From positions 1 through 48,445 of the IMG/VR virus record IMGVR_UViG_3300035073_000022: a stretch of DNA of 48,445 nucleotides; one strand, written 5' to 3'. The stretch comes from a virus. Below, in pieces: positions 2,631-48,445 of this stretch (its first letter is position 1; each line of letters opens with the position of its first letter). The translations under genes were made by a program, and so were the position numbers. The notes beneath the pieces were generated by a model that had not been told where the DNA came from, did not search any database, and saw only the letters and a list, made by a program, of their open reading frames with translations.

Positions 2631-3032
2631 TCAGCTCGCCTGCTCGACGACCTTCTCGGTGTCCCACTTGGTGTTCTTGAGCCACCCGGCTTCGGCCTTG
2701 AGCTCGGCCATGGCCTGCTCGGCGGTGTAGTTGTCGTACCGACCCGGCTCCGGGGTGCGCTTGCCGTCGGCGACCAACAGGAGCGCCGAGCGGTGCTTGC
2801 TGTCATCACCGGAGACCCAACGGCCGCCCTTCGTCATGACGCCACATCCGCAAGCGCAGAGCTTGGGAGTGGAGGTGTTGCCCTTGCGGACGGTCAGGAC
2901 GAGGGTTTCGCCCACGAACTCGGGGTCGACACTGAAGATCTTGGCGAGCTGTGCCCGCTGGGAATCAGTGAGATCCGAGATCCGGACTTCGGGCTTGGAC
3001 GTGGTGGGCTCGGTGGTGGTGGACTTTGCCAT
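2631..3032 (-). CDS. C-x-C-G-C-G family small protein (paralogue 1 of 4)
   Basis: Start at 3030-3032 (MAKSTTTEPTTSKPEVR...) behind AGAGGAACCGAA; 133 aa. After an N-terminal helical part (LTDSQRAQLAKIFSVDPEF) it carries LCACGCGVMTKGG, then RWVSGDDSKHRSALLLVADG, KRTPEPG and a helical tail. The same order (helical head, C-x-CGCG, aromatic-x-G-x-D-S, KRTPE, helical tail) recurs at 3684-4031, 4153-4497 and 4626-4970. The three closely spaced cysteines suggest metal binding (inference). Similar short CGCG...PG-x-D-x-K proteins occur in actinobacterial phages; their function is not established. It is the first gene after the promoter at 3092-3121. Confidence 0.8.
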   Translation of the reverse strand: MAKSTTTEPTTSKPEVRISDLTDSQRAQLAKIFSVDPEFVGETLVLTVRKGNTSTPKLCACGCGVMTKGGRWVSGDDSKHRSALLLVADGKRTPEPGRYDNYTAEQAMAELKAEAGWLKNTKWDTEKVVEQAS

Positions 3033-3091
3033 TTCGGTTCCTCTGTTTCTGTTGACGCTCGCCGGGGGCCCGGTCGAGCGGGACTCCGTCC

Positions 3092-3121
3092 ATTCTAGCA
3101 CACGCCGATACGCTCTGTCAA
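3092..3121 (-). promoter_or_regulatory. Sigma70-like leftward promoter
   Basis: Read on the minus strand: -35 TTGACA (3116-3121), an 18-bp spacer ending CGGCGTGTGC, and -10 TAGAAT (3092-3097) with an extended TG. It lies about 60 bp upstream of the first gene of the leftward operon (2631-3032). The CGGCGTGTG spacer element is shared with the promoter at 44664-44693, and partly with 47641-47669. Confidence 0.8.
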
Positions 3122-3179
3122 GCCAACACGTATCGCCGTGAGTCTGCAGGTGACGGTGGACTGCAGATCGTGAAGGGCA

Positions 3180-3219
3180 CGGACTCGGTAGTCCGGTCGC
3201 AGGCGGACTCGGGAGTCCG
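3180..3219. repeat. Two iteron-like palindromes
   Basis: CGGACTCGGTAGTCCG at 3180-3195 and CGGACTCGGGAGTCCG at 3204-3219, start to start 24 bp apart. The second is identical to the three sites inside the replication gene at 41226-41297; the first differs by one base. They are probable binding sites for the initiator encoded at 40910-41665, serving either as a second origin or as control of nearby promoters (inference). Confidence 0.75.
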
Positions 3220-3466
3220 TATTCACCGCTGCTGACACATAGGGTGCCCTCTTAGATTTTCAGATTTGGACCTGGTTCTTGATCTGGAGCGGATTGCATC
3301 GGAGATGCCCCCCTAAACCCCCCCCAACCACGAGAGGACCCCACTAGCATAGCAGGCCTACCAACCGGGGGCAAGATAGGCCCTGAGCGGCCAGAAGAAA
3401 CGCCCCGCTTACCATTAGTAATTGAGACGATTACCTCTCTCGGGGGGTGTCGTGGTGTCAACAAGA

Positions 3467-3620
3467 GTTGCTCAGGTTGGTGTGGGACATTAGACGTGCA
3501 AGGGCGGGTCGTGACATGCTCGTGACCCACGCTCGCTTAGGTTGGTGGGGGGACAGACATCCATCTCTTTACCGGTAAAGTACGGGTTGACCCGTTGCCG
3601 ATATTGGTGAGAGGACAGAT
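3467..3620 (+). repeat. Three copies of a dispersed same-orientation repeat
   Basis: Copies begin at about 3467 (GTTGCTCAGGTTGGTGTGGG), 3531 (a GCTCGCTTAGGTTGGTGGGG form) and 3595 (a GTTGCCGATATTGGTGAGAG form). Further copies lie at 4070, 4536 and 47680, with a degenerate one near 5071. All point the same way and sit in leader or intergenic DNA of minus-strand units, so they are candidates for binding sites of a phage regulator. Confidence 0.6.
3567..3580. promoter_or_regulatory. Perfect 14-bp palindrome, possible operator
   Basis: CTTTACCGGTAAAG is exactly self-complementary. It lies between two copies of the dispersed repeat in a non-coding region. Size and symmetry fit a dimeric repressor site; no repressor gene is identified. 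Confidence 0.45.
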
Positions 3621-3630
3621 ATCAATTAAA

Positions 3631-3667
3631 GCCCTCTTCGAGGGCGGGGGGGCCATACGGCCCCCCC
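3631..3667 (-). terminator. Tandem terminator hairpins for gene 3684-4031
   Basis: Read leftward, the first hairpin has 9-bp arms GGGGGGGCC/GGCCCCCCC (3646-3667). The second has arms GCCCTC/GAGGGC with a GAA loop (3631-3645) and is followed by TTTAATT, the classic intrinsic terminator layout. Confidence 0.8.
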
Positions 3668-3683
3668 GTTATCCCCTCCACTA

Positions 3684-4031
3684 CTACTTGCGGTTCGCCT
3701 TGGCCTCCTTGCGGGCCTTGGCCTCGGCTTCGAGCTTGGTCAGCTCGGCCAACGCCTCTTCCGGTGTCATGTTATCCCACGAACCCGGCTCGGGCGTCCG
3801 CTTGCCCCTGCTCACCGCCAGGAGACCCGACTTGTAGATCGAGTCGTCCCCCGGGAACCAGGTCCCGTAGGTCATACGGCCGCAGCCACAGTAGCATTCC
3901 CGCTGCACCCTCGCCTCACCCTTGGTTACCAACGTGACCTCACCCGCCAGCTCCTCGAGGTCAACCCCGAAGATCTCGACGAGAGAAGCACGGTGGGCCT
4001 TCGTGAGGTTGGACTTGTTGTACTTCGCCAT
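3684..4031 (-). CDS. C-x-C-G-C-G family small protein (paralogue 2 of 4)
   Basis: A 115-residue protein (MAKYNKSNLTKAHRASLVE...). A helical head of about 35 residues is followed by ECYCGCGRMTYGTWFPGDDS, then LLAVSRGKRTPEPGSWDNM and a charged helical tail ending KARKEAKANRK. The CYCGCG and WFPG-x-D-S blocks are conserved with the other paralogues. It is transcribed alone: its own leader hairpin (4060-4079) lies upstream and tandem terminators (3631-3667) downstream. The ribosome-binding site is AAAGGAGAAAC. Function unknown; single-gene units with strong terminators suggest high or separately timed expression. Confidence 0.85.
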   Translation of the reverse strand: MAKYNKSNLTKAHRASLVEIFGVDLEELAGEVTLVTKGEARVQRECYCGCGRMTYGTWFPGDDSIYKSGLLAVSRGKRTPEPGSWDNMTPEEALAELTKLEAEAKARKEAKANRK

Positions 4032-4059
4032 GACTACGTTTCTCCTTTTGGTTGCCTAA

Positions 4060-4105
4060 CCTGGACATTGTTGCCCAGGTTGGTGTGGGATATTGCACCC
4101 AACAA
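4060..4105 (-). promoter_or_regulatory. Leader hairpin and dispersed repeat upstream of 3684-4031
   Basis: In the minus-strand RNA, CCUGGGC (from 4073-4079) pairs with GUCCAGG (4060-4066) around a 6-base loop. The dispersed repeat overlaps and extends rightward (4070-4095). The equivalent leader at 4524-4570 folds in the same way with base changes on both sides of the stem, which supports a conserved RNA or DNA structure. Confidence 0.55.
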
Positions 4106-4120
4106 GTGGGCCACGAAGAA

Positions 4121-4140
4121 AGCCCCCCATGCGGGGGGCT
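4121..4140 (-). terminator. Intrinsic terminator of gene 4153-4497
   Basis: 8-bp arms AGCCCCCC/GGGGGGCT with a 4-base loop, followed on the minus strand by TTTCTTCG. It lies 13 bp past the stop codon. Confidence 0.85.
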
Positions 4141-4152
4141 CCCTCCGATTCC

Positions 4153-4497
4153 TTACTTCTTCGCCTTCGCTGCCTTGCGTGCCTCGGCTTCCTTCTCCAG
4201 CTTCCTCAGCTCCTTGAGGGCCTGCTCCGGTGACATGGCATCCCATGCTCCGGGTTCCGGTGTCCTCTTGCCACGGCTGACCGCCAGGAGGCCTGCCTTG
4301 TACTTGCTGTCACAGCCGGGGAACCACGTGCCGTACGTCATGCTGCCGCACCCGCAGTAGCATGCCTTCTGGACTCGCGTCTCTCCCTTGGTGACCAGGC
4401 TGACCTCTCCGGCCAGATCCTCCGGTGTGCACCCGAAGATCTCGACCAGCTGTGCCGTCTGGGACTCGTTGAGGCTGGAGTTGGTGAATTTGGACAT
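4153..4497 (-). CDS. C-x-C-G-C-G family small protein (paralogue 3 of 4)
   Basis: 114 aa (MSKFTNSSLNESQTAQLVE...). It is closely similar to the product of 3684-4031: EIFG-x(n)-DLAGEVSLVTKGE, ACYCGCGSMTYGTWFPGCDS, AGLLAVSRGKRTPEPGAWD, then a Lys/Glu/Ala-rich helical tail ending KAAKAKK. A further Cys appears in FPGCD, giving four clustered cysteines. Monocistronic, with leader hairpin 4524-4544 and terminator 4121-4140. The ribosome-binding site is AAAGGAGAAC. Function unknown. Confidence 0.85.
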   Translation of the reverse strand: MSKFTNSSLNESQTAQLVEIFGCTPEDLAGEVSLVTKGETRVQKACYCGCGSMTYGTWFPGCDSKYKAGLLAVSRGKRTPEPGAWDAMSPEQALKELRKLEKEAEARKAAKAKK

Positions 4498-4523
4498 GGT
4501 TGTTCTCCTTTTTTGGTTGCCTA

Positions 4524-4570
4524 CCTGAGCGTAGGTTGCTCAGGTTGGTGTGGGGATGTTGACCCCAACA
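4524..4570 (-). promoter_or_regulatory. Leader hairpin and dispersed repeat upstream of 4153-4497
   Basis: 7-bp arms CCTGAGC (4524-4530) and GCTCAGG (4538-4544) around a 7-base loop, then the dispersed repeat GTTGCTCAGGTTGGTGTGGG running to about 4556. Compared with the leader at 4060-4105, the fifth base pair changes from G-C to A-U and the sixth from G-U to G-C, so pairing is kept. Confidence 0.55.
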
Positions 4571-4585
4571 ATGTATTCCATAAAA

Positions 4586-4609
4586 GGGGGGCCGGTCTCC
4601 CGGCCCCCC
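4586..4609 (-). terminator. Intrinsic terminator of gene 4626-4970
   Basis: 10-bp arms GGGGGGCCGG/CCGGCCCCCC with a GAGA loop in the minus-strand RNA, followed by TTTTA. A strong rho-independent terminator just past the stop codon. Confidence 0.9.
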
Positions 4610-4625
4610 AATTATGTCCTGAACG

Positions 4626-4970
4626 CTAGGCCTTCTTAGCAGCCTTGCGTGCGGCAGCTTCCTTTTCCAACTTCCGGAGTTCCTTCAGTGCAGCCTCCGG
4701 AGTGAGTGCGTCCCACGACCCAGCCTCGGGTGTGCGCTTCCCACGAGACACGGCGAGCAGGCCCGCCTTGTACTTGGAATCACACCCTGGGAACCAGGTG
4801 CTGTAGGTCTCCTTACCACACCCACAATAGCAAGCCTTAAGGACCTTGTTAGGTCCACTTACCGTGAGATGGAAATCACGCTCCAACTCCGTGGTAGGGA
4901 CACCAAACACGCGTGCGATGGTGGCCTTATCCTCGTCGGTAAGGTTGGCTTGAGGTGAGTAGTTAGGCAT
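4626..4970 (-). CDS. C-x-C-G-C-G family small protein (paralogue 4 of 4)
   Basis: 114 aa (MPNYSPQANLTDEDKATIA...). Motifs in order: RVFGVPTTELERDFHLTV, ACYCGCGKETYSTWFPGCDS, AGLLAVSRGKRTPEAGSWD, and a Lys/Ala/Glu-rich helical tail ending ARKAAKKA. It is the most divergent of the three adjacent paralogues in its N-terminal half, while the CYCGCG to KRTPE core is almost unchanged. Its upstream region contains the palindromes at 5019-5045, and it is divergent from the terminase gene. The ribosome-binding site is AAAAGGAGAAAT. Function unknown. Confidence 0.85.
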   Translation of the reverse strand: MPNYSPQANLTDEDKATIARVFGVPTTELERDFHLTVSGPNKVLKACYCGCGKETYSTWFPGCDSKYKAGLLAVSRGKRTPEAGSWDALTPEAALKELRKLEKEAAARKAAKKA

Positions 4971-35469: not shown

Positions 35470-35804
35470 AGTTCCTCCAGATGTGTGAGGGTCATCATTA
35501 CAATCCCCTCGGTTCCCCAGCCGTCAGGCATGAGGACAGCGGCAAACGGCTTCCCGTCGTCCGGTCGTGCTGAATACTGGTCTCGGCAGGCGACGTAGAA
35601 CTCGACGTGTCGCCTGATCTGGTCGCCTGCCTTGACCTCGATCCACAGCGGGAGATGGGACCACCTTTCCTCATGTCCCATCCCCGCTGCGAACTTTGGC
35701 GGCTCGATATTAAAGAGCTGCTCGAAGAAACGGCGCACGTAGTTCTGCTTCCTGCGTCCCTTTTGGCGGCTCAGCCGCCCTATGGCCACCCAATCAGAAG
35801 GCAT
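35376..35804 (-). CDS. PD-(D/E)XK nuclease-like protein
   Basis: 142 aa. N-terminal basic part SRQKGRRKQNYVRRFFEQLF is followed by HLPLWIEVKAGDQIRRH, where IEVKAG gives the E-x-K of a PD-(D/E)XK site. Later PFAAVLMPDGWGTEGIVMM is a further core strand. Holliday-junction-resolvase-like or repair endonuclease is likely. Its last 31 codons overlap WhiB in another frame, and its ATG overlaps the upstream gene by 11 bases. Confidence 0.6.
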   Translation of the reverse strand: MPSDWVAIGRLSRQKGRRKQNYVRRFFEQLFNIEPPKFAAGMGHEERWSHLPLWIEVKAGDQIRRHVEFYVACRDQYSARPDDGKPFAAVLMPDGWGTEGIVMMTLTHLEELCEMKGGLIRLHAGELTPKSSSPSSKRKPSL

Positions 35805-36531
35805 CGCCCTGGGCCTCGTCTTGCCCTCCCTGGACCTGGGGGAGGGCGGGGGTAGCAGCGGCCCCCGCCACCATATTCCTTAGCGTCCCGGCCAGCCGGA
35901 GCGTCGGGACATTGAACTTGCGTTCGAACGACTCCCATGACTTTTTGACGGTCCGGTGTTCGATTGCCAGTTTGCCATAGGCGGGGAACGTCCCCGTTCT
36001 TTCCAGCAGCTCGACCTGGGCCTCAATCTCCATGCAGGCGTTGATGCTCGAGGTGGTCATCAGCCAGACCCCCACTCCGGGAGTGTCGAGCATGACCACC
36101 GACAGCCGACCGTTGGGGGAGCAGACGTCGAGTCCCGTCCCCGGCATCTTACCCTCGGACAGACACACACAATCCACGTTATCGAGGCCTCCGCCTTCGG
36201 GATCTTTGTACGGGACCATGGCGGTCTGGCCGTCGCATCGGCGCTGACACCCGGCTTTGGTCCACAGCTCGTAATACGCAGACCACGGATCGGCAGGCAG
36301 CATCACGTCGATCTCGTTACTGTCGATGACGACTTCGAACTGCCCTTTCTCCCACGGCTTGATCTCACCTTTGATGCCGTAGATTCCGCCCATCGCCATG
36401 AGCAGGCCTTTGTCGGGGGAGGTGAGCCGCCAGTTGTCGAGCGGCTTACCCGGTTTCTTCGGGTCGGTTGACTTCTCGCCCAGGCGGAGCCGCCCGAGTT
36501 CAGGATATCGGTTGGGTAGGGTCTTGATCAT
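35794..36531 (-). CDS. gp3/RDF-like protein (recombination directionality factor family)
   Basis: 245 aa. LPNRYPELGRLRLG at the start, LDNWRLTSPDKGLLMAMGGI, then FEVVIDSNEIDVMLP, AYYELWTKAGCQRRCDG and GVWLMTTSSINACMEIEAQV. This order matches the phiC31 gp3-like family as I recall it, some members of which direct serine-integrase excision. No integrase is present here, so a role in replication or recombination is more likely. Cysteines in CQRRC, DCVC and VCSP may bind metal. The Ala/Gln-rich C-terminus looks flexible. Confidence 0.65.
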   Translation of the reverse strand: MIKTLPNRYPELGRLRLGEKSTDPKKPGKPLDNWRLTSPDKGLLMAMGGIYGIKGEIKPWEKGQFEVVIDSNEIDVMLPADPWSAYYELWTKAGCQRRCDGQTAMVPYKDPEGGGLDNVDCVCLSEGKMPGTGLDVCSPNGRLSVVMLDTPGVGVWLMTTSSINACMEIEAQVELLERTGTFPAYGKLAIEHRTVKKSWESFERKFNVPTLRLAGTLRNMVAGAAATPALPQVQGGQDEAQGDAF

Positions 36532-37355
36532 TGCTGTATCTCCTTGATTCGCGTTTCGATCTCTGCGGCCGCATCCCAGGACACGGCCTCCACTGGTAGT
36601 TTGATGCAGGTCTCACGCCACCGGCAGTACCGGCAGTTCCACGGCTCCCCCCGCTTCGCCATGTAAGGCGGGGGAGAGGCGACCGGGCCGTAACCGGGGA
36701 TGACCCGCTTCGGCCATTTCTGTTCGGCGATCCGGCCAGCGATCCCCCTGATCCGTTCCAACTCGTCCTGGATCTGTGTCATCCAGTACAGGTCGTTCAG
36801 GTCGATCACCCATTCGGCCAGACCGTTTTTGTCCTTGTCGATATAGATCATGTGGGCTTCCGATTTACCCAGCCCTCGCCCGCAGATCCCGGCCTGCAGT
36901 ACATGTTCGACCTTCGGGCCGGGGCCATCCTCGGAGAAGATACGCCCGGTGGCCAGGCCGAACGCATAGCCCGACACCGACTTGATCTCGACCACTCGTT
37001 CGTCGTAGGTGGCGTCGGCATGGAACGACACCGGGTATTCCGGTTCGAGCGTCCCCTTCACCTCGAGTTCGGCGCCCATGTTGGTGGCTAGGAGCCCCTG
37101 GATCCGTTCGTGCCAGACGTTCCCCACGTCGAAGGTGAACAGGACGCTGGCGTCGAGCTCGTGATCGGGTGGGTGGCCGACTGCTTGGAATGCCATCTGG
37201 CGGGAGCAGATCCCGGCGTAGGACGCCCGCATGAGCGAACCTGTGGCGGTCGGTTTCGGCCCTTCCTCTTTCTGCTTGTCGAGTAGCCACTGGTCGAACA
37301 GTGGCTGCACGATCCCTTCTTCAATCGGCAGCACCATGACCTCCCGTACTTCCAA
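36528..37355 (-). CDS. Cas4/RecB-type iron-sulfur exonuclease
   Basis: About 275 aa. The PD-(D/E)XK site is read in PVSFHADATYDERVVEIKSV (D...E-x-K). The cluster cysteines are the one in AGICSRQMAF near residue 50 and the C-terminal CRYCRWRETC. This single N-terminal plus three C-terminal Cys arrangement is that of Cas4-like 5' to 3' exonucleases, common in actinophage replication and recombination modules. The start is uncertain: TTG at 37353-37355, or ATG at 37335-37337 (MVLPIEEG), which has GGGAGG very close upstream. Confidence 0.8.
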   Translation of the reverse strand: MEVREVMVLPIEEGIVQPLFDQWLLDKQKEEGPKPTATGSLMRASYAGICSRQMAFQAVGHPPDHELDASVLFTFDVGNVWHERIQGLLATNMGAELEVKGTLEPEYPVSFHADATYDERVVEIKSVSGYAFGLATGRIFSEDGPGPKVEHVLQAGICGRGLGKSEAHMIYIDKDKNGLAEWVIDLNDLYWMTQIQDELERIRGIAGRIAEQKWPKRVIPGYGPVASPPPYMAKRGEPWNCRYCRWRETCIKLPVEAVSWDAAAEIETRIKEIQQ

Positions 37356-37824
37356 ATCCGTCGGTCCCCCGCTCGGACTGTGGCAACTCGGTCACATATT
37401 CGATCTTCCAGCCGATCGCTGCTGACATCATCGGGATCAACTGTCCGATCCGCTGGCCGGGGGCTACCATGATCGGTGAGAGGGTCGGGTTGTAGACGCC
37501 GACGAACAGCTCACCTCGATAGCCGGGGTCGATGATCCCCTGCATGGCGATCAGCTTGTGCTTGCGGAACAGCGAGGATCGGCCGACCACCAGCCCCCAA
37601 CAGTCGTTCGGCATGGCCACGGCCAGATCGGTCCGCACGTCCAAGAACTGGCTGGGCTGGATGGTGTACTGCATGGTTGAGGCCAGATCGAAGCCAGCGT
37701 CGGTATCGTACGCCCGGTAGACGTCCCATGCCTGGCTGGTGACCTTTAACACCCGTAGTACCGGCGCAGATGGCACGGTCAGAGCCCCCGTCTCCTGGTT
37801 GATTGCCCACTTCTGTTCGGTCAT
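37321..37824 (-). CDS. dut: dUTPase (dUTP diphosphatase)
   Basis: 167 aa from the ATG at 37822-37824 (MTEQKWAINQ..., GGGGG upstream). It hydrolyses dUTP to dUMP, limiting uracil in DNA and feeding dTMP synthesis. All five trimeric dUTPase motifs are visible: AGFDLAS; GRSSLFRKHKL; GIIDPGYRGE; PGQRIGQLI; and the C-terminal RGTDGFGSTG that closes over the active site. The first 30 residues are an N-terminal extension of unknown role. Confidence 0.9.
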   Translation of the reverse strand: MTEQKWAINQETGALTVPSAPVLRVLKVTSQAWDVYRAYDTDAGFDLASTMQYTIQPSQFLDVRTDLAVAMPNDCWGLVVGRSSLFRKHKLIAMQGIIDPGYRGELFVGVYNPTLSPIMVAPGQRIGQLIPMMSAAIGWKIEYVTELPQSERGTDGFGSTGGHGAAD

Positions 37825-38081
37825 GCTACCCCCTGCTGTTCGTAGTCGGCTTCCCACATGCGGTGTTCCTGGCCTTCGCAGGGCAACTCGTGGTTGTGCC
37901 GGTGCATCCGGTGGTAGGGCTGGCTCAGTTCCATCCAGCGATTGTTGGCAAACATCATGTTCACCCGTTCGTCCTCCAGTTGCCTACTGGGGGATTGCAG
38001 GTAGTACTCGTTACAGGTGCCGAGTGGACGTGCTACCATCCAGGCCAGTTCGTCACCGGTTATCTCCGTTAGCTTGGTCAT
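37821..38081 (-). CDS. Small His-rich protein of unknown function
   Basis: 86 aa (MTKLTEITGDELAWMVARPL...) starting at 38079-38081 with TGGAGGATCG upstream, inside the preceding gene. The C-terminal part is rich in His, Met and Glu (PYHRMHRHNHELPCEGQEHR). The composition could bind metal but no fold is recognised. Stop overlaps the dUTPase start. Confidence 0.6.
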   Translation of the reverse strand: MTKLTEITGDELAWMVARPLGTCNEYYLQSPSRQLEDERVNMMFANNRWMELSQPYHRMHRHNHELPCEGQEHRMWEADYEQQGVA

Positions 38082-39155: not shown

Positions 39156-39349
39156 CGTGGCCTCACGTGATCTTCGGGGGTAATGTCCTGGCCGCCCCAT
39201 CCTTCGGCTGCCGCGTTTGCCTCTTCCGCTTCGTAGGCCAGCCACTTCTCCGCCAGATCGCAGACGGCGAGGATGTAGACAGCGTCCCGAGCGAACCCGT
39301 CGTTCCGGTAAACACTGCGCAGGTGGGCGATCTGCTCGGCGGGGGTCAC
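39152..39349 (-). CDS. MTPxEQIAxLR family protein, tandem paralogue 3
   Basis: 65 aa: MTPAEQIAHLRSVYRNDGFA, then ILAVCDLAEKWLAYEAEEAN and a C-terminal segment ending TPEDHVRPR. It is the shortest of the three tandem paralogues. Its ATG overlaps the purZ-like gene's stop. Function unknown; perhaps a small partner of the nucleotide-metabolism genes around it. Confidence 0.7.
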   Translation of the reverse strand: MTPAEQIAHLRSVYRNDGFARDAVYILAVCDLAEKWLAYEAEEANAAAEGWGGQDITPEDHVRPR

Positions 39350-40371
39350 AGCATCACCATCGTGTTCGGCCCGGTCGATACCGCCACGATCGGAGCCCCA
39401 ATATCCTGGGACAGGCCGTTCAACCGGTGTAGCACATGGTCGGGCAGATCCTTACGACCCGCCAGTTCCGGATACCAGTAGTCCAGGAACGTCAGTACCA
39501 CGTTACATACGGCCCCGCCGTTCGCATAGATCGCCGACAGCGCCAACTGCGGCTCCCACCGGCCGATCCTGCGGATTCGGTTGGTCACAGTCGTACGCTC
39601 CGGCTCGATCTCCACCCCCAACTCATGGGACAGGATGGTGAAATCGATCTCCTGTTCAAGCGGACCGGAGTTCCCGGCCACCCGGATCGGATAGGTCCGC
39701 ATCACCACCCACGGCTGGACCTTGTCGATCAGCGGCTCCCACGGTGACAGGCCGACCGCTGCCATCGCATCGACCGCCCGACAATCGCATGACGTCGTAT
39801 ACGGATAGTATTCGGTGTGGAAGCCGAGTCCGTAGCCCTGAGCGCCCTCGATGATCACGTCGTTCCCTCGGGCGAGCTCATTGCGTAGGGCGGCGGTCAC
39901 CTCGGTAGGCGGGGCGTACCGCCATTCGCTCGACCCGTAGGTCACGGCTTCCCGCATCACTCGGTCAGCTCGAGCTCGACCGATCCCTTTAGCGGTGGAA
40001 CCGATCCGGGGGATCAGCTCTTCCTCGTCTGCCTTATGCCGGTCGGTGATCATGGTGGCGGACCAATCCACCGCGATCCGTTCCGATACTTTGTACCCGT
40101 TGTTGTCGAGTAGGTCGATCTCGTCCCACAGAACCTCCGGGTCGATCTCCGATCCGGGGGCGATGTAGAGGTTGGACTTCGGGTTGACAAATCCGACCGG
40201 GACGTGCCGCATCCGGTAGGGACGGCCCCGGTCGATCACAGTGTGACCGGCGTTAGGTCCGCCGATCCGGACTACAGCAGGTGACGGACGTTGGCGGGAC
40301 AGCCAGGCGGTCACGTGACCTTTGGCCTCGCTCCCGAACTGCCCACCAACGACTACATGTACGTTGGGCAT
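39346..40371 (-). CDS. purZ: PurZ-like 2-aminoadenylosuccinate synthetase (PurA family)
   Basis: 341 aa from the ATG at 40369-40371 behind AGAGAGGAACCAC. PurA joins aspartate to IMP; phage PurZ joins it to dGMP, leading to dZTP and 2-aminoadenine DNA. The P-loop is GGQFGSEAKG (residues 9-18). Ser14 stands where PurA has catalytic Asp13 (GDEGKG), the change known in PurZ. GGPNAGHT carries the conserved His43; GSTAKGIGRARADR replaces the usual GTTGRGIGP; IIEGAQGYGLG and TTVTNRIRRIGRW are the later nucleotide-binding blocks. First gene of a leftward operon that also has a MazG-like candidate and a dUTPase. An ordinary PurA seems unlikely. Confidence 0.8.
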   Translation of the reverse strand: MPNVHVVVGGQFGSEAKGHVTAWLSRQRPSPAVVRIGGPNAGHTVIDRGRPYRMRHVPVGFVNPKSNLYIAPGSEIDPEVLWDEIDLLDNNGYKVSERIAVDWSATMITDRHKADEEELIPRIGSTAKGIGRARADRVMREAVTYGSSEWRYAPPTEVTAALRNELARGNDVIIEGAQGYGLGFHTEYYPYTTSCDCRAVDAMAAVGLSPWEPLIDKVQPWVVMRTYPIRVAGNSGPLEQEIDFTILSHELGVEIEPERTTVTNRIRRIGRWEPQLALSAIYANGGAVCNVVLTFLDYWYPELAGRKDLPDHVLHRLNGLSQDIGAPIVAVSTGPNTMVML

Positions 40372-40390
40372 GTGGTTCCTCTCTTCCTGG

Positions 40391-40429
40391 GGCGGTGGCC
40401 AGTATACCACCGCCTGAACCGCCGGTCAA
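40391..40429 (-). promoter_or_regulatory. Leftward promoter of the purZ operon with overlapping operator
   Basis: Minus strand: -35 TTGACC (40424-40429), 17-bp spacer, -10 TATACT (40401-40406). An inverted repeat GGCGGTGG (40391-40398) / CCACCGCC (40407-40414) is centred on the -10 box, so a dimeric repressor would block polymerase. It is 30 bp upstream of the purZ-like start and probably drives the whole operon to 32429. Confidence 0.8.
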
Positions 40430-40581: not shown

Positions 40582-40929
40582 TTAACGATGGCTTTCACAG
40601 CACGGCTCTCCAAGCCATTCGGTCGGTGTACGTGCGCCTTTCGTATTGTTACAGAGGCCACATGAGAGGACCAGATTTGCACGTTGATTACTTCCACCTT
40701 GCTTACGAGGGACTACATGATCGATCTCAGGAGGAACCCCATTCACTGTTATCCAAGATTCACCCCATCTGTTTTGTATCGGCGCACGTTGAAGGCTGAG
40801 CCGCCGCCTACAGTAGTGGCACTCCATGCTAAAGATGTGCTCTACACCAAAGTCAATCAGACCCAATTTCGTCAACTTCCATGCCCGCTCACCATCGATA
40901 CGGAGACCTATGAATAGATTCTCAGACAT
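40582..40929 (-). CDS. HNH endonuclease
   Basis: Up to 115 aa. The core is SMECHYCRRRL, then PEIDHVVPRKQGGSNQRANL, VLSCGLCNNTKG: two C-x-x-C zinc pairs around the IDHVVP His of the HNH ββα-metal fold. The longest frame starts at 40927-40929, overlapping the start of the rightward replication gene by 20 bases on the opposite strand. An in-frame ATG at 40825-40827 (MECHYC) would leave an 82-bp divergent gap and is a credible alternative. Small HNH proteins act in packaging or as homing-type endonucleases; which one cannot be told. Confidence 0.8.
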   Translation of the reverse strand: MSENLFIGLRIDGERAWKLTKLGLIDFGVEHIFSMECHYCRRRLSLQRAPIQNRWGESWITVNGVPPEIDHVVPRKQGGSNQRANLVLSCGLCNNTKGARTPTEWLGEPCCESHR

Positions 40930-41665
40930 TGGCCCCTACACTATCGTACCTAAGTGGCTGCTGGACCTGCAGGTATCGGGTGATGCCCTCCGGCTCTACT
41001 GTCGGCTCGGTTGCTATGCTAACCAGGAGGGAGAATGCTGGCCACGCCAGACAAGGCTGGCCGCAGATCTGAATGCCAACGATAGGTCGATAAGGCGTTG
41101 GCTTAAGGAGCTCGAGGCTCTCGGAGCCTTGCTCATTACACCCGGCAAACGAGGCATTAATCTCTATAGGCTGGTCCATATGAATCCAATGGAGGATGAA
41201 GGGCTCCCCATGGATGGTGCAGATGCGGACTCGGGAGTCCGGTCCCCTGCCGACGATACGGACTCGGGAGTCCGTAGTGACCGGACTCGGGAGTCCGGTA
41301 CAAAAAAAGAACCAGATCCATGTAACCAGAAGAGTTTCCCTGATGGGAAACTCCGCCTGCGCCCGTCCGCCAGCACCGACTCCAGGGAACCCTTCGCCGC
41401 TGTGGCGCTGCAAGTCTGGAAACAGCGCGAACAAGACAACACTCTTCCGTTTGGACGCGGTATTAGCATGCTCATGCAACTGAGCAAGTATGTTGTCGGC
41501 CGGATTGGGGAAGAGAAGGCGTATTCGCTGCTGATGGGGCTGGATGACTTCACTCCGGGCTATGCTAACTTCGCCCTCAGTAGAGCCGTCAAGAGCCGCA
41601 GCACCTATGACAAGAATATGGAAACCATCGACCGTGTGATGGGAGGAACCGATGAACGATTCTGA
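40910..41665 (+). CDS. Replication initiator, lambda O-like (winged helix with internal origin)
   Basis: 251 aa from the ATG at 40910-40912 behind CGGAGACCT; the frame upstream to 40826 has no ribosome-binding site. The N-terminal domain (TIVPKWLLDLQVSGDALRLY, QTRLAADLNANDRSIRRWLK, ELEALGALLITPGKRGINLY) is a winged helix-turn-helix typical of phage replisome organisers. Residues about 104-145 form a Ser/Asp/Arg linker (DSGVRS repeats) encoded by three iterons. The C-terminal domain (AVALQVWKQREQ...LSKYVVGRIGEEKAYSLL) is helical and likely contacts the helicase loader encoded next, with which it overlaps by 14 bases. Confidence 0.8.
   Translation: MNRFSDIGPYTIVPKWLLDLQVSGDALRLYCRLGCYANQEGECWPRQTRLAADLNANDRSIRRWLKELEALGALLITPGKRGINLYRLVHMNPMEDEGLPMDGADADSGVRSPADDTDSGVRSDRTRESGTKKEPDPCNQKSFPDGKLRLRPSASTDSREPFAAVALQVWKQREQDNTLPFGRGISMLMQLSKYVVGRIGEEKAYSLLMGLDDFTPGYANFALSRAVKSRSTYDKNMETIDRVMGGTDERF
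41226..41297. repeat. Three palindromic iterons inside the initiator gene (probable replication origin)
   Basis: CGGACTCGGGAGTCCG occurs exactly at 41226-41241, 41259-41274 and 41282-41297 (spacing 33 and 23 bp). The second extends to 9-bp arms TACGGACTC/GAGTCCGTA and the third to ACCGGACTC/GAGTCCGGT. An A-rich tract (ACAAAAAAAGAACC) follows at once and could be the unwinding element. Lambda has its origin iterons in the same place, in the middle of gene O. Confidence 0.8.
41332..41353. repeat. 9-bp inverted repeat next to the iterons
   Basis: GAGTTTCCC (41332-41340) and GGGAAACTC (41345-41353) around TGAT, within the initiator gene about 35 bp after the third iteron and just past the A-rich tract. 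It may be part of the origin, as a secondary-structure element or a host-protein site. Confidence 0.5.
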
Positions 41666-42056
41666 GTTCAAGTCATTTATTGCCACTATGGCTTCGATCT
41701 GGCCGGACCATAAGCTGCCCGAAGACCAGGTACTCCGTTGGAAAGACAACACCCGGCTGATGCGGTATGAACAGGGGGTTGAGGTCGTCTCCACCCTCGA
41801 GCGGTCTAGCAAGTTCTGGCCATCGTTCGCTGAGTTCCACCAGACCTGGCGATCGCTGTTCCTCCAGCCGGTCATCAGCGAAGCCGAACAGTATGCAGGG
41901 CCGACGCCGGAAGGACGAGCTGTCGCCGCCCAGATCGGGCGCATGCTGATCGAGGCTCGACCCAAACAGCCACACTGGCATGGCGGGCCAGATCCGTGTC
42001 CTATTTGCACTCTGAGTGCCTCGACTCGCCAGCCGTCATACGACGACGGCAGATAG
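41652..42056 (+). CDS. Probable helicase loader (G39P/lambda P-like)
   Basis: 134 aa. FIATMASIWPDHKLPEDQVL, then W-x-D-N...YEQGVEVVSTLERSSKFW, PSFAEFHQTWRSL: the W-P...W...L...A-x-x-x-L...F-P-x-x-A-E-F pattern is that of G39P-like proteins that recruit the host replicative helicase. The C-terminus has HWHGGPDPCPICT, a possible metal site. Its position directly after the O-like gene repeats the lambda O-P order. The last 56 bases are antisense to the end of 42001-42771. Confidence 0.65.
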   Translation: MNDSEFKSFIATMASIWPDHKLPEDQVLRWKDNTRLMRYEQGVEVVSTLERSSKFWPSFAEFHQTWRSLFLQPVISEAEQYAGPTPEGRAVAAQIGRMLIEARPKQPHWHGGPDPCPICTLSASTRQPSYDDGR

Positions 42057-48143: not shown

Positions 48144-48379
48144 CGGGGTTGACGGGTGGCCATGCGGGAGCAGTCGTACGTGCGACGGACCTCGGAGTCC
48201 AAGTCCACGTCGAACCAGCCCTGGCAGGTCTCTGAATGAGGCGAGGCCGGGGCATGTGGGGTCTCCAGCTCACGCTGGTTGTGCGGGGTGTCTGCGACCG
48301 TTCCCCAGACCCAGTCGTTGGTAAACACTCGCAGGCCGATTTCGACGGGCTTGCCGCCGATGATGATGTGCTCGCTCAT
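48140..48379 (-). CDS. Small protein of unknown function (complete copy of the gene cut at base 1)
   Basis: 79 aa: MSEHIIIGGKPVEIGLRVFT, then DWVWGTVADTPHNQRELE and a C-terminal part CQGWFDVDLDSEVRRTYDCS. This is the complete form of the gene at 1-212, differing at the second and third residues and at I/V7. AGAGGAACCA precedes the ATG. Two cysteines near the end may pair. The fold is unknown. Confidence 0.75.
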   Translation of the reverse strand: MSEHIIIGGKPVEIGLRVFTNDWVWGTVADTPHNQRELETPHAPASPHSETCQGWFDVDLDSEVRRTYDCSRMATRQPR

Positions 48380-48445
48380 TGGTTCCTCTCTTCCTCATCT
48401 TGCTCGGTGTCCAGGGTCGTGATGAACACGGAGGCTGCGTCGATG
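48168..48445. repeat. Imperfect terminal direct repeat with the left end
   Basis: 48168-48292 is identical to 1-125. Up to the shared start-associated motif there are six differences, and from there the sequence follows 487-560 rather than 213 onward. The two ends therefore overlap but belong to two alleles, one with and one without the 281-bp segment carrying gene 209-490. Confidence 0.85.
48376..48445 (-). CDS. 3' end of a variant of gene 487-819, cut by the window edge
   Basis: Reads ...ASVFITTLDTEQDEEERNQ and stop, matching the C-terminus of 487-819 except for two or three residues just before it. It is followed at once by 48140-48379, so the gene at 209-490 is absent in this variant. 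Confidence 0.75.
   Translation of the reverse strand, partial: IDAASVFITTLDTEQDEEERNQ

Follow-up and report, generated by a model that had tools for sequence, protein, structure and literature searches.

A probable replication origin nested in the initiator gene of an uncultured virus, with a second, noncoding iteron cluster

Introduction

Why does a viral gene carry three exact copies of a dyad in the stretch that encodes its linker? We addressed this question in a virus record of 48,445 bases (IMGVR_UViG_3300035073_000022), the whole of which is referred to here as the window. A first-pass annotation had read the locus as a lambda-like origin; the repeats could also be operators, or a repeat of the encoded peptide. 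That an origin can lie within an initiator gene is already known, as is the existence of a second, intergenic site.

Results

The repeats lie in a predicted initiator gene

Because its first 221 bases match positions 48168-48388 at 96.8%, the record probably represents a terminally redundant genome that is nearly complete and has a unit length of ~48.17 kb. A second piece (483-556) matches the final 75 bases, as though ~260 bases were missing from one copy.

The repeat-bearing gene, P0001 (40910-41665, plus strand), encodes a protein of 251 aa with an HTH_36 domain at aa 23-72, a linker and a C-terminal part. It matches PF13730 (HTH_36) at 3.6e-13 (49.5 bits, cut-off 25) and, among PHROG families, phrog_270 (replication initiation protein, 5.6e-14) and phrog_391 (O-like, 3.2e-10); these family matches support its assignment as an initiator-type protein. 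By family, however, the protein is not lambda O: P0001 has no match to PF04492 (Phage_rep_O) at E values up to 1, where lambda O itself matches at 5.7e-36, and BLASTP against lambda O found nothing (E 3.4). The nearest relatives listed are mostly genes annotated as 'RepA-like replication initiator' or HTH in Arthrobacter and Microbacterium phages, at <40% identity across about half the length or less. In Laroye, Salgado and LiSara, the NC_ record labels the relative 'transcriptional repressor', which favours reading the repeats as operators, as considered below. Close relatives of P0001 were absent from the viral contigs and genome contigs searched, so how these exact iterons evolved cannot be traced; a search for near relatives through the PurZ-like gene described below also found none. 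No solved structure was found for P0001, and an AlphaFold model of the protein alone was too poor to use (pLDDT 38.8).

The 3′ end of the initiator gene is overlapped by an ORF of 134 aa, P0002 (41652-42056, plus strand), in the position occupied by annotated 'helicase loader' genes in relatives; PHROG, Pfam and further comparisons gave no sequence match to any loader. An antisense ORF of 362 codons (40922-42010, minus strand) covers almost the whole initiator gene and is taken for a by-product of high GC.

Among the neighbouring genes, a PurZ-like gene (39346-40410, minus strand) matches phrog_1211 (2-aminooxy adenylosuccinate synthetase) at 1.7e-79 and PF00709 at 2.3e-43. The phage may use 2-aminoadenine; the gene scan revealed neither a partner enzyme nor a polymerase. 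The region also holds a dUTPase-like gene (37321-37857) and a gene for a Cas4-like exonuclease (36528-37355), the latter adjoined by a gene for a Gp3-like 'recombination directionality factor-like' protein (35794-36531, minus strand; PF18897, 4.9e-25). Rfam and tRNA scans returned no matches.

Three in-gene iterons precede an A-rich tract and an inverted repeat

As first annotated, three exact copies of CGGACTCGGGAGTCCG lie within the linker-coding part of the initiator gene between 41226 and 41297, all on the plus strand: iteron 1 at 41226-41241, iteron 2 at 41259-41274 and iteron 3 at 41282-41297. Each is a 7+2+7 dyad with 7-bp arms around a non-complementary GG centre, giving 2 mismatches on the other strand; calling the sites 'perfect dyads', as had been done, is therefore incorrect. 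At ≤3 mismatches, CGGACTCGGGAGTCCG has 11 matches in the window, compared with a mean of 1.74 and a largest count of 6 in 100 shuffles. From this comparison, chance is no explanation for the copies.

Could the repeats have no function as DNA, having arisen by chance tandem duplication or serving only as a repeat of the peptide linker? The abundance of D, S and G in the linker would suit that reading, and the repeated DSGVRS linker proposed in the first-pass annotation is indeed encoded by iterons 1 and 2, which lie in gene frame 1. Iteron 3, in frame 0, reads RTRESG instead. Copies in frames 1, 1 and 0 indicate that the DNA rather than the peptide has been kept. The bases flanking the 16-mers also differ among copies 1, 2 and 3, and two more copies lie in noncoding DNA, as described below. 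The peptide-linker repeat was rejected on the differing reading frames, and we find it scarcely credible that the repeats lack a function as DNA.

Directly after the iterons come an A-rich tract and a 9-bp inverted repeat, both at the places originally annotated. The tract (41298-41331, plus strand), a putative unwinding element, holds AAGAACCAGATCCA at 41307-41320. Its 40-mer is 65% AT (26/40), tied for the highest count in the window, where the mean is 39%. The inverted repeat (41332-41353), GAGTTTCCCTGATGGGAAACTC, has a 4-nt loop and is unique in the window, with a single occurrence at up to 3 mismatches; arms as long as 9 bp were found in 1.0% of random 110-nt pieces.

A second iteron cluster lies in noncoding DNA

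A second iteron pair, which the first-pass annotation had missed, is present at 3180-3219 in noncoding DNA and on the same (plus) strand as the in-gene copies. It consists of iteron 4 (3180-3195), which has one change and a GT centre, and iteron 5 (3204-3219), an exact copy of CGGACTCGGGAGTCCG. The two sites are ~10.1 kb apart via the contig ends. Next to the pair is an AT-rich stretch (3250-3289; 60% AT, in the top 0.3% of 40-mers) containing AAGAACCAGGTCCA on the minus strand at 3267-3280. The 14-nt element AAGAACCAGRTCCA occurs at 41307-41320 (plus strand) and at 3267-3280 (minus strand), with no other mismatch-free occurrence in the window, and the similarity score of the two places was reached at 2 of 1,000 random places. 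As putative sites, 3180-3219 and 3250-3289 provide the SPP1-type combination of a noncoding cluster of initiator sites and an AT-rich element.

The setting of this pair bears on whether the repeats are operators. A near-consensus, sigma-70-like promoter on the minus strand (TTGACA-18-TAGAAT, 3121-3092) faces leftward genes, and the noncoding pair lies upstream of it. The HTH protein, or another regulator, would then be a repressor or activator, with the in-gene sites serving autoregulation and 3180-3219 controlling a leftward operon from ~3032; the 'transcriptional repressor' label would fit such a role. However, 58 bp separate the end of the pair from the −35 hexamer downstream of it, and pair and promoter do not overlap; a simple promoter operator at 3180-3219 was rejected on this ground. 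Sites placed deep in coding sequence and followed by an AT tract and an inverted repeat suit an origin better, and the second copies found in five Arthrobacter phages (see below) have a tract and a hairpin, for which an operator has no need. We therefore consider regulation by operators an improbable explanation of the repeats.

Four small leftward genes are arranged in series at 2631-4970 (minus strand). Three of them are clear paralogues (~72% DNA identity, spacing 466-470), and the gaps between the genes hold a repeated leader like GCTCAGGTTGGTGTGGG.

The two clusters may also differ in function. In that case the in-gene cluster would be an origin, whereas the noncoding pair would neither start replication nor stall forks and would serve only for regulation or for titration of the initiator; for the in-gene part, this overlaps our preferred explanation. 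The make-up of the second cluster lends itself to such a division, having only two iterons, a tract element inverted relative to them and a weak best hairpin (arm 5). Against it stand the shared 14-nt tract element and the AT-richness next to 3180-3219, the precedent of SPP1 and the second copies in Arthrobacter phages. We regard this division of roles as a genuine, if lesser, possibility, and are evenly divided on whether the distal 3180-3219 site is an oriR-like element.

Repeats of differing sequence occupy one linker position in related initiators

Seventeen initiator genes, the window's included, were compared; since many are related to one another, they do not amount to 17 independent cases. 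In each gene, closely spaced direct repeats were scored over the best 150-nt stretch, and the score was set against 200 codon shuffles of that gene. A linker repeat cluster matched by 0/200 shuffles was present in 11 of the 17, in every instance at aa 81-167 (the window, Kovu, Klevey, Salgado, Bumble, Waltz, Shrooms, Edmundo, Prairie, Laroye and SEsuP-1). Results were weaker for Altadena (2/200 shuffles) and Gingerbug (7/200), and clearly negative for Lilmac1015, Bolt007, Lesiram and DelaGarza (4/17). AGGTCAG-type dyads are present in the linkers of Gingerbug, Lesiram and DelaGarza. Halomonas QHHSV-1 and Enterococcus Efs 1-1-1 (L022 and L029), whose initiator frame is unsettled and which were excluded from the set, have short repeats, seen by eye only.

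The letters of the repeats differ from group to group of initiators, and the motif of a phage's own group was confined to the initiator gene in 9 of 9 relatives searched genome-wide (Laroye and Edmundo by pattern only; Prairie and SEsuP-1 left out). A hairpin after the tract was not above chance (loops ≤12) in Kovu, Salgado, Bumble, Waltz, Shrooms, Edmundo, SEsuP-1 or lambda. The window's gene combines an HTH_36 domain, repeats in the linker after the HTH and an AT-rich tract, and so probably belongs with the HTH_36/phrog_270 in-gene iteron origins. The occurrence, at one linker position, of repeats that differ among related initiators supports the reading of the repeats as an origin.

Further support came from viral contigs searched without protein information for the pattern GGACT-N4-AGTCC, occurring twice with a gap of 3-33 nt. 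This recovered 13 contigs, representing 8 distinct loci (six near-identical contigs are one homologous stretch), and at 4 of the 8 the palindromes fall in the linker of initiator-type genes. Two of these (L006 and L007) match PF04492 at 5.9e-13 and 6e-30, respectively, and a third (L017) matches PF13730 at 2.9e-7; the fourth (L014) matches PF13730 at 2.6e-4, under the curated cut-off, and is without a replication PHROG. In L007 and L014, the palindrome copies are in differing reading frames. The other loci are a collagen-like gene (L009), a site near a Cro/CI-type regulator (L018), the end of an HTH-like ORF without a family match (L012) and an unknown gene (the L010 group). Because palindromes alone led to initiator linkers at half of the distinct loci, this search too argues for an origin.

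The module is duplicated in five Arthrobacter phages

In 12 relatives, the linker origin was compared with the phage's own genome. A second copy came to light in five of them, namely Lilmac1015, Klevey, Bolt007, Altadena and Bumble, which form one related group; it was absent in the other 7. The second copy comprises the iteron, the A-rich tract (AACTTAG elements) and the hairpin, is inverted and lies near the right genome end. It is intergenic in all three phages checked against annotation (Lilmac1015, Altadena and Klevey). In Bumble (MT498055, L038), the record bears no annotation at the second copy, and its positions 46500-49500 lack any feature, though genes are annotated close to the right ends of related phages.

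In 10 of 10 module copies, the tract is followed by a hairpin whose arms measure 6-8 bp, and paired changes are seen in the arms, for example GAGAGTCC/GGACTCTC versus GAGACTCC/GGAGTCTC. Since arms of at least 7 bp were common in a control (67/500 random 70-mers), the argument for the hairpin is its place and the paired change rather than the length of its arms. Among the papers that literature searches listed, none announces in its title or abstract an origin duplicated in Arthrobacter phages, and the terms searched in one Arthrobacter phage survey revealed none either, which is weak evidence of absence.

Discussion

The family of the initiator, the order of iterons, AT-rich tract and inverted repeat, and the recurrence of in-gene iterons in relatives all support the proposal of the first-pass annotation that the origin lies within the gene. 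On these sequence features, we think it highly likely that 41226-41353 is the replication origin of the phage, nested in the linker-coding part of its own initiator gene.

In such an origin, a dimer of P0001 would bind each dyad iteron and, by analogy with lambda, the resulting three-site complex would strain the adjacent A-rich tract open. Helicase loading could then occur at the opened tract, perhaps via the P0002 product. The inverted repeat at 41332-41353 borders the tract and might form a hairpin in single-stranded DNA or serve as a site for a protein. P0001 very probably binds the noncoding pair at 3180-3219 as well, where, following the SPP1 analogy, there may be a second origin, or bound initiator may stall the fork and aid the switch to concatemers.

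More speculatively, and on balance we doubt it, two-site origins in which one initiator serves an in-gene and an intergenic site could be a recurrent plan in actinophages and this virus rather than an oddity of SPP1, with the distal site a programmed fork barrier or late origin that times the change from circle to concatemer. The A-rich tract might even consist of 2-aminoadenine:T pairs, in which case the cost of melting it would be changed.

These findings suggest that sequence alone can support a replication origin in an uncultured virus. Several groups of HTH_36-type initiators carry repeats of varied sequence, often dyads, right after the DNA-binding domain. With a whole-module counterpart of the distal site in five cultured Arthrobacter phages, the second-site idea from SPP1 becomes testable in easy laboratory phages.

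Comparison with known systems

The window resembles the Lilmac1015-like Arthrobacter phages (Lilmac1015, Klevey, Bolt007, Altadena and Bumble), whose HTH initiators ('RepA-like replication initiator') have linker iterons, an A-rich tract and a hairpin; the module recurs close to the right genome end. The iteron letters are unrelated to those of the window, and their second copy is a whole inverted module, whereas the window's second site is an iteron pair with a short tract element. For extrachromosomal mycobacterial prophages, a published account tentatively places the RepA origin in repA or directly upstream of it, a place similar to that proposed here; in the part of that account covered, the authors identified no repeated motif (PMC7157519).

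As in the lambda origin within gene O, dyad iterons follow the DNA-binding domain and precede an A-rich tract, all inside the gene. The first-pass annotation had set the window's dyads against lambda-type iterons, a contrast that fails because lambda iterons are, by the published account, themselves dyads that bind O dimers (PMC5043065); dimers on these iterons are described as straining the adjacent AT-rich region open (PMC5043065, PMC7466680). The differences lie in the number of iterons (four in lambda, three in the window's gene), in their unrelated sequences and in the protein family (PF04492 for lambda O, PF13730 here). The stretch of lambda examined, part of the genome only, has no annotated second site.

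Because of the second, noncoding iteron cluster, SPP1 with its oriL and oriR is a closer model than lambda. According to published descriptions, G38P of SPP1 binds oriL, inside gene 38, and the intergenic oriR, which are similar in make-up, with direct repeats and an AT-rich element, and lie 12-13 kb apart on the circularised genome; the second site has been proposed to stall forks, favouring the switch to concatemers (PMC6316719, PMC3485210). Compared on that description, the window likewise has repeats and an AT-rich element in the initiator gene and a second, noncoding site. Unlike SPP1 as described, the window combines at its second site two iterons with a tract element that is inverted.
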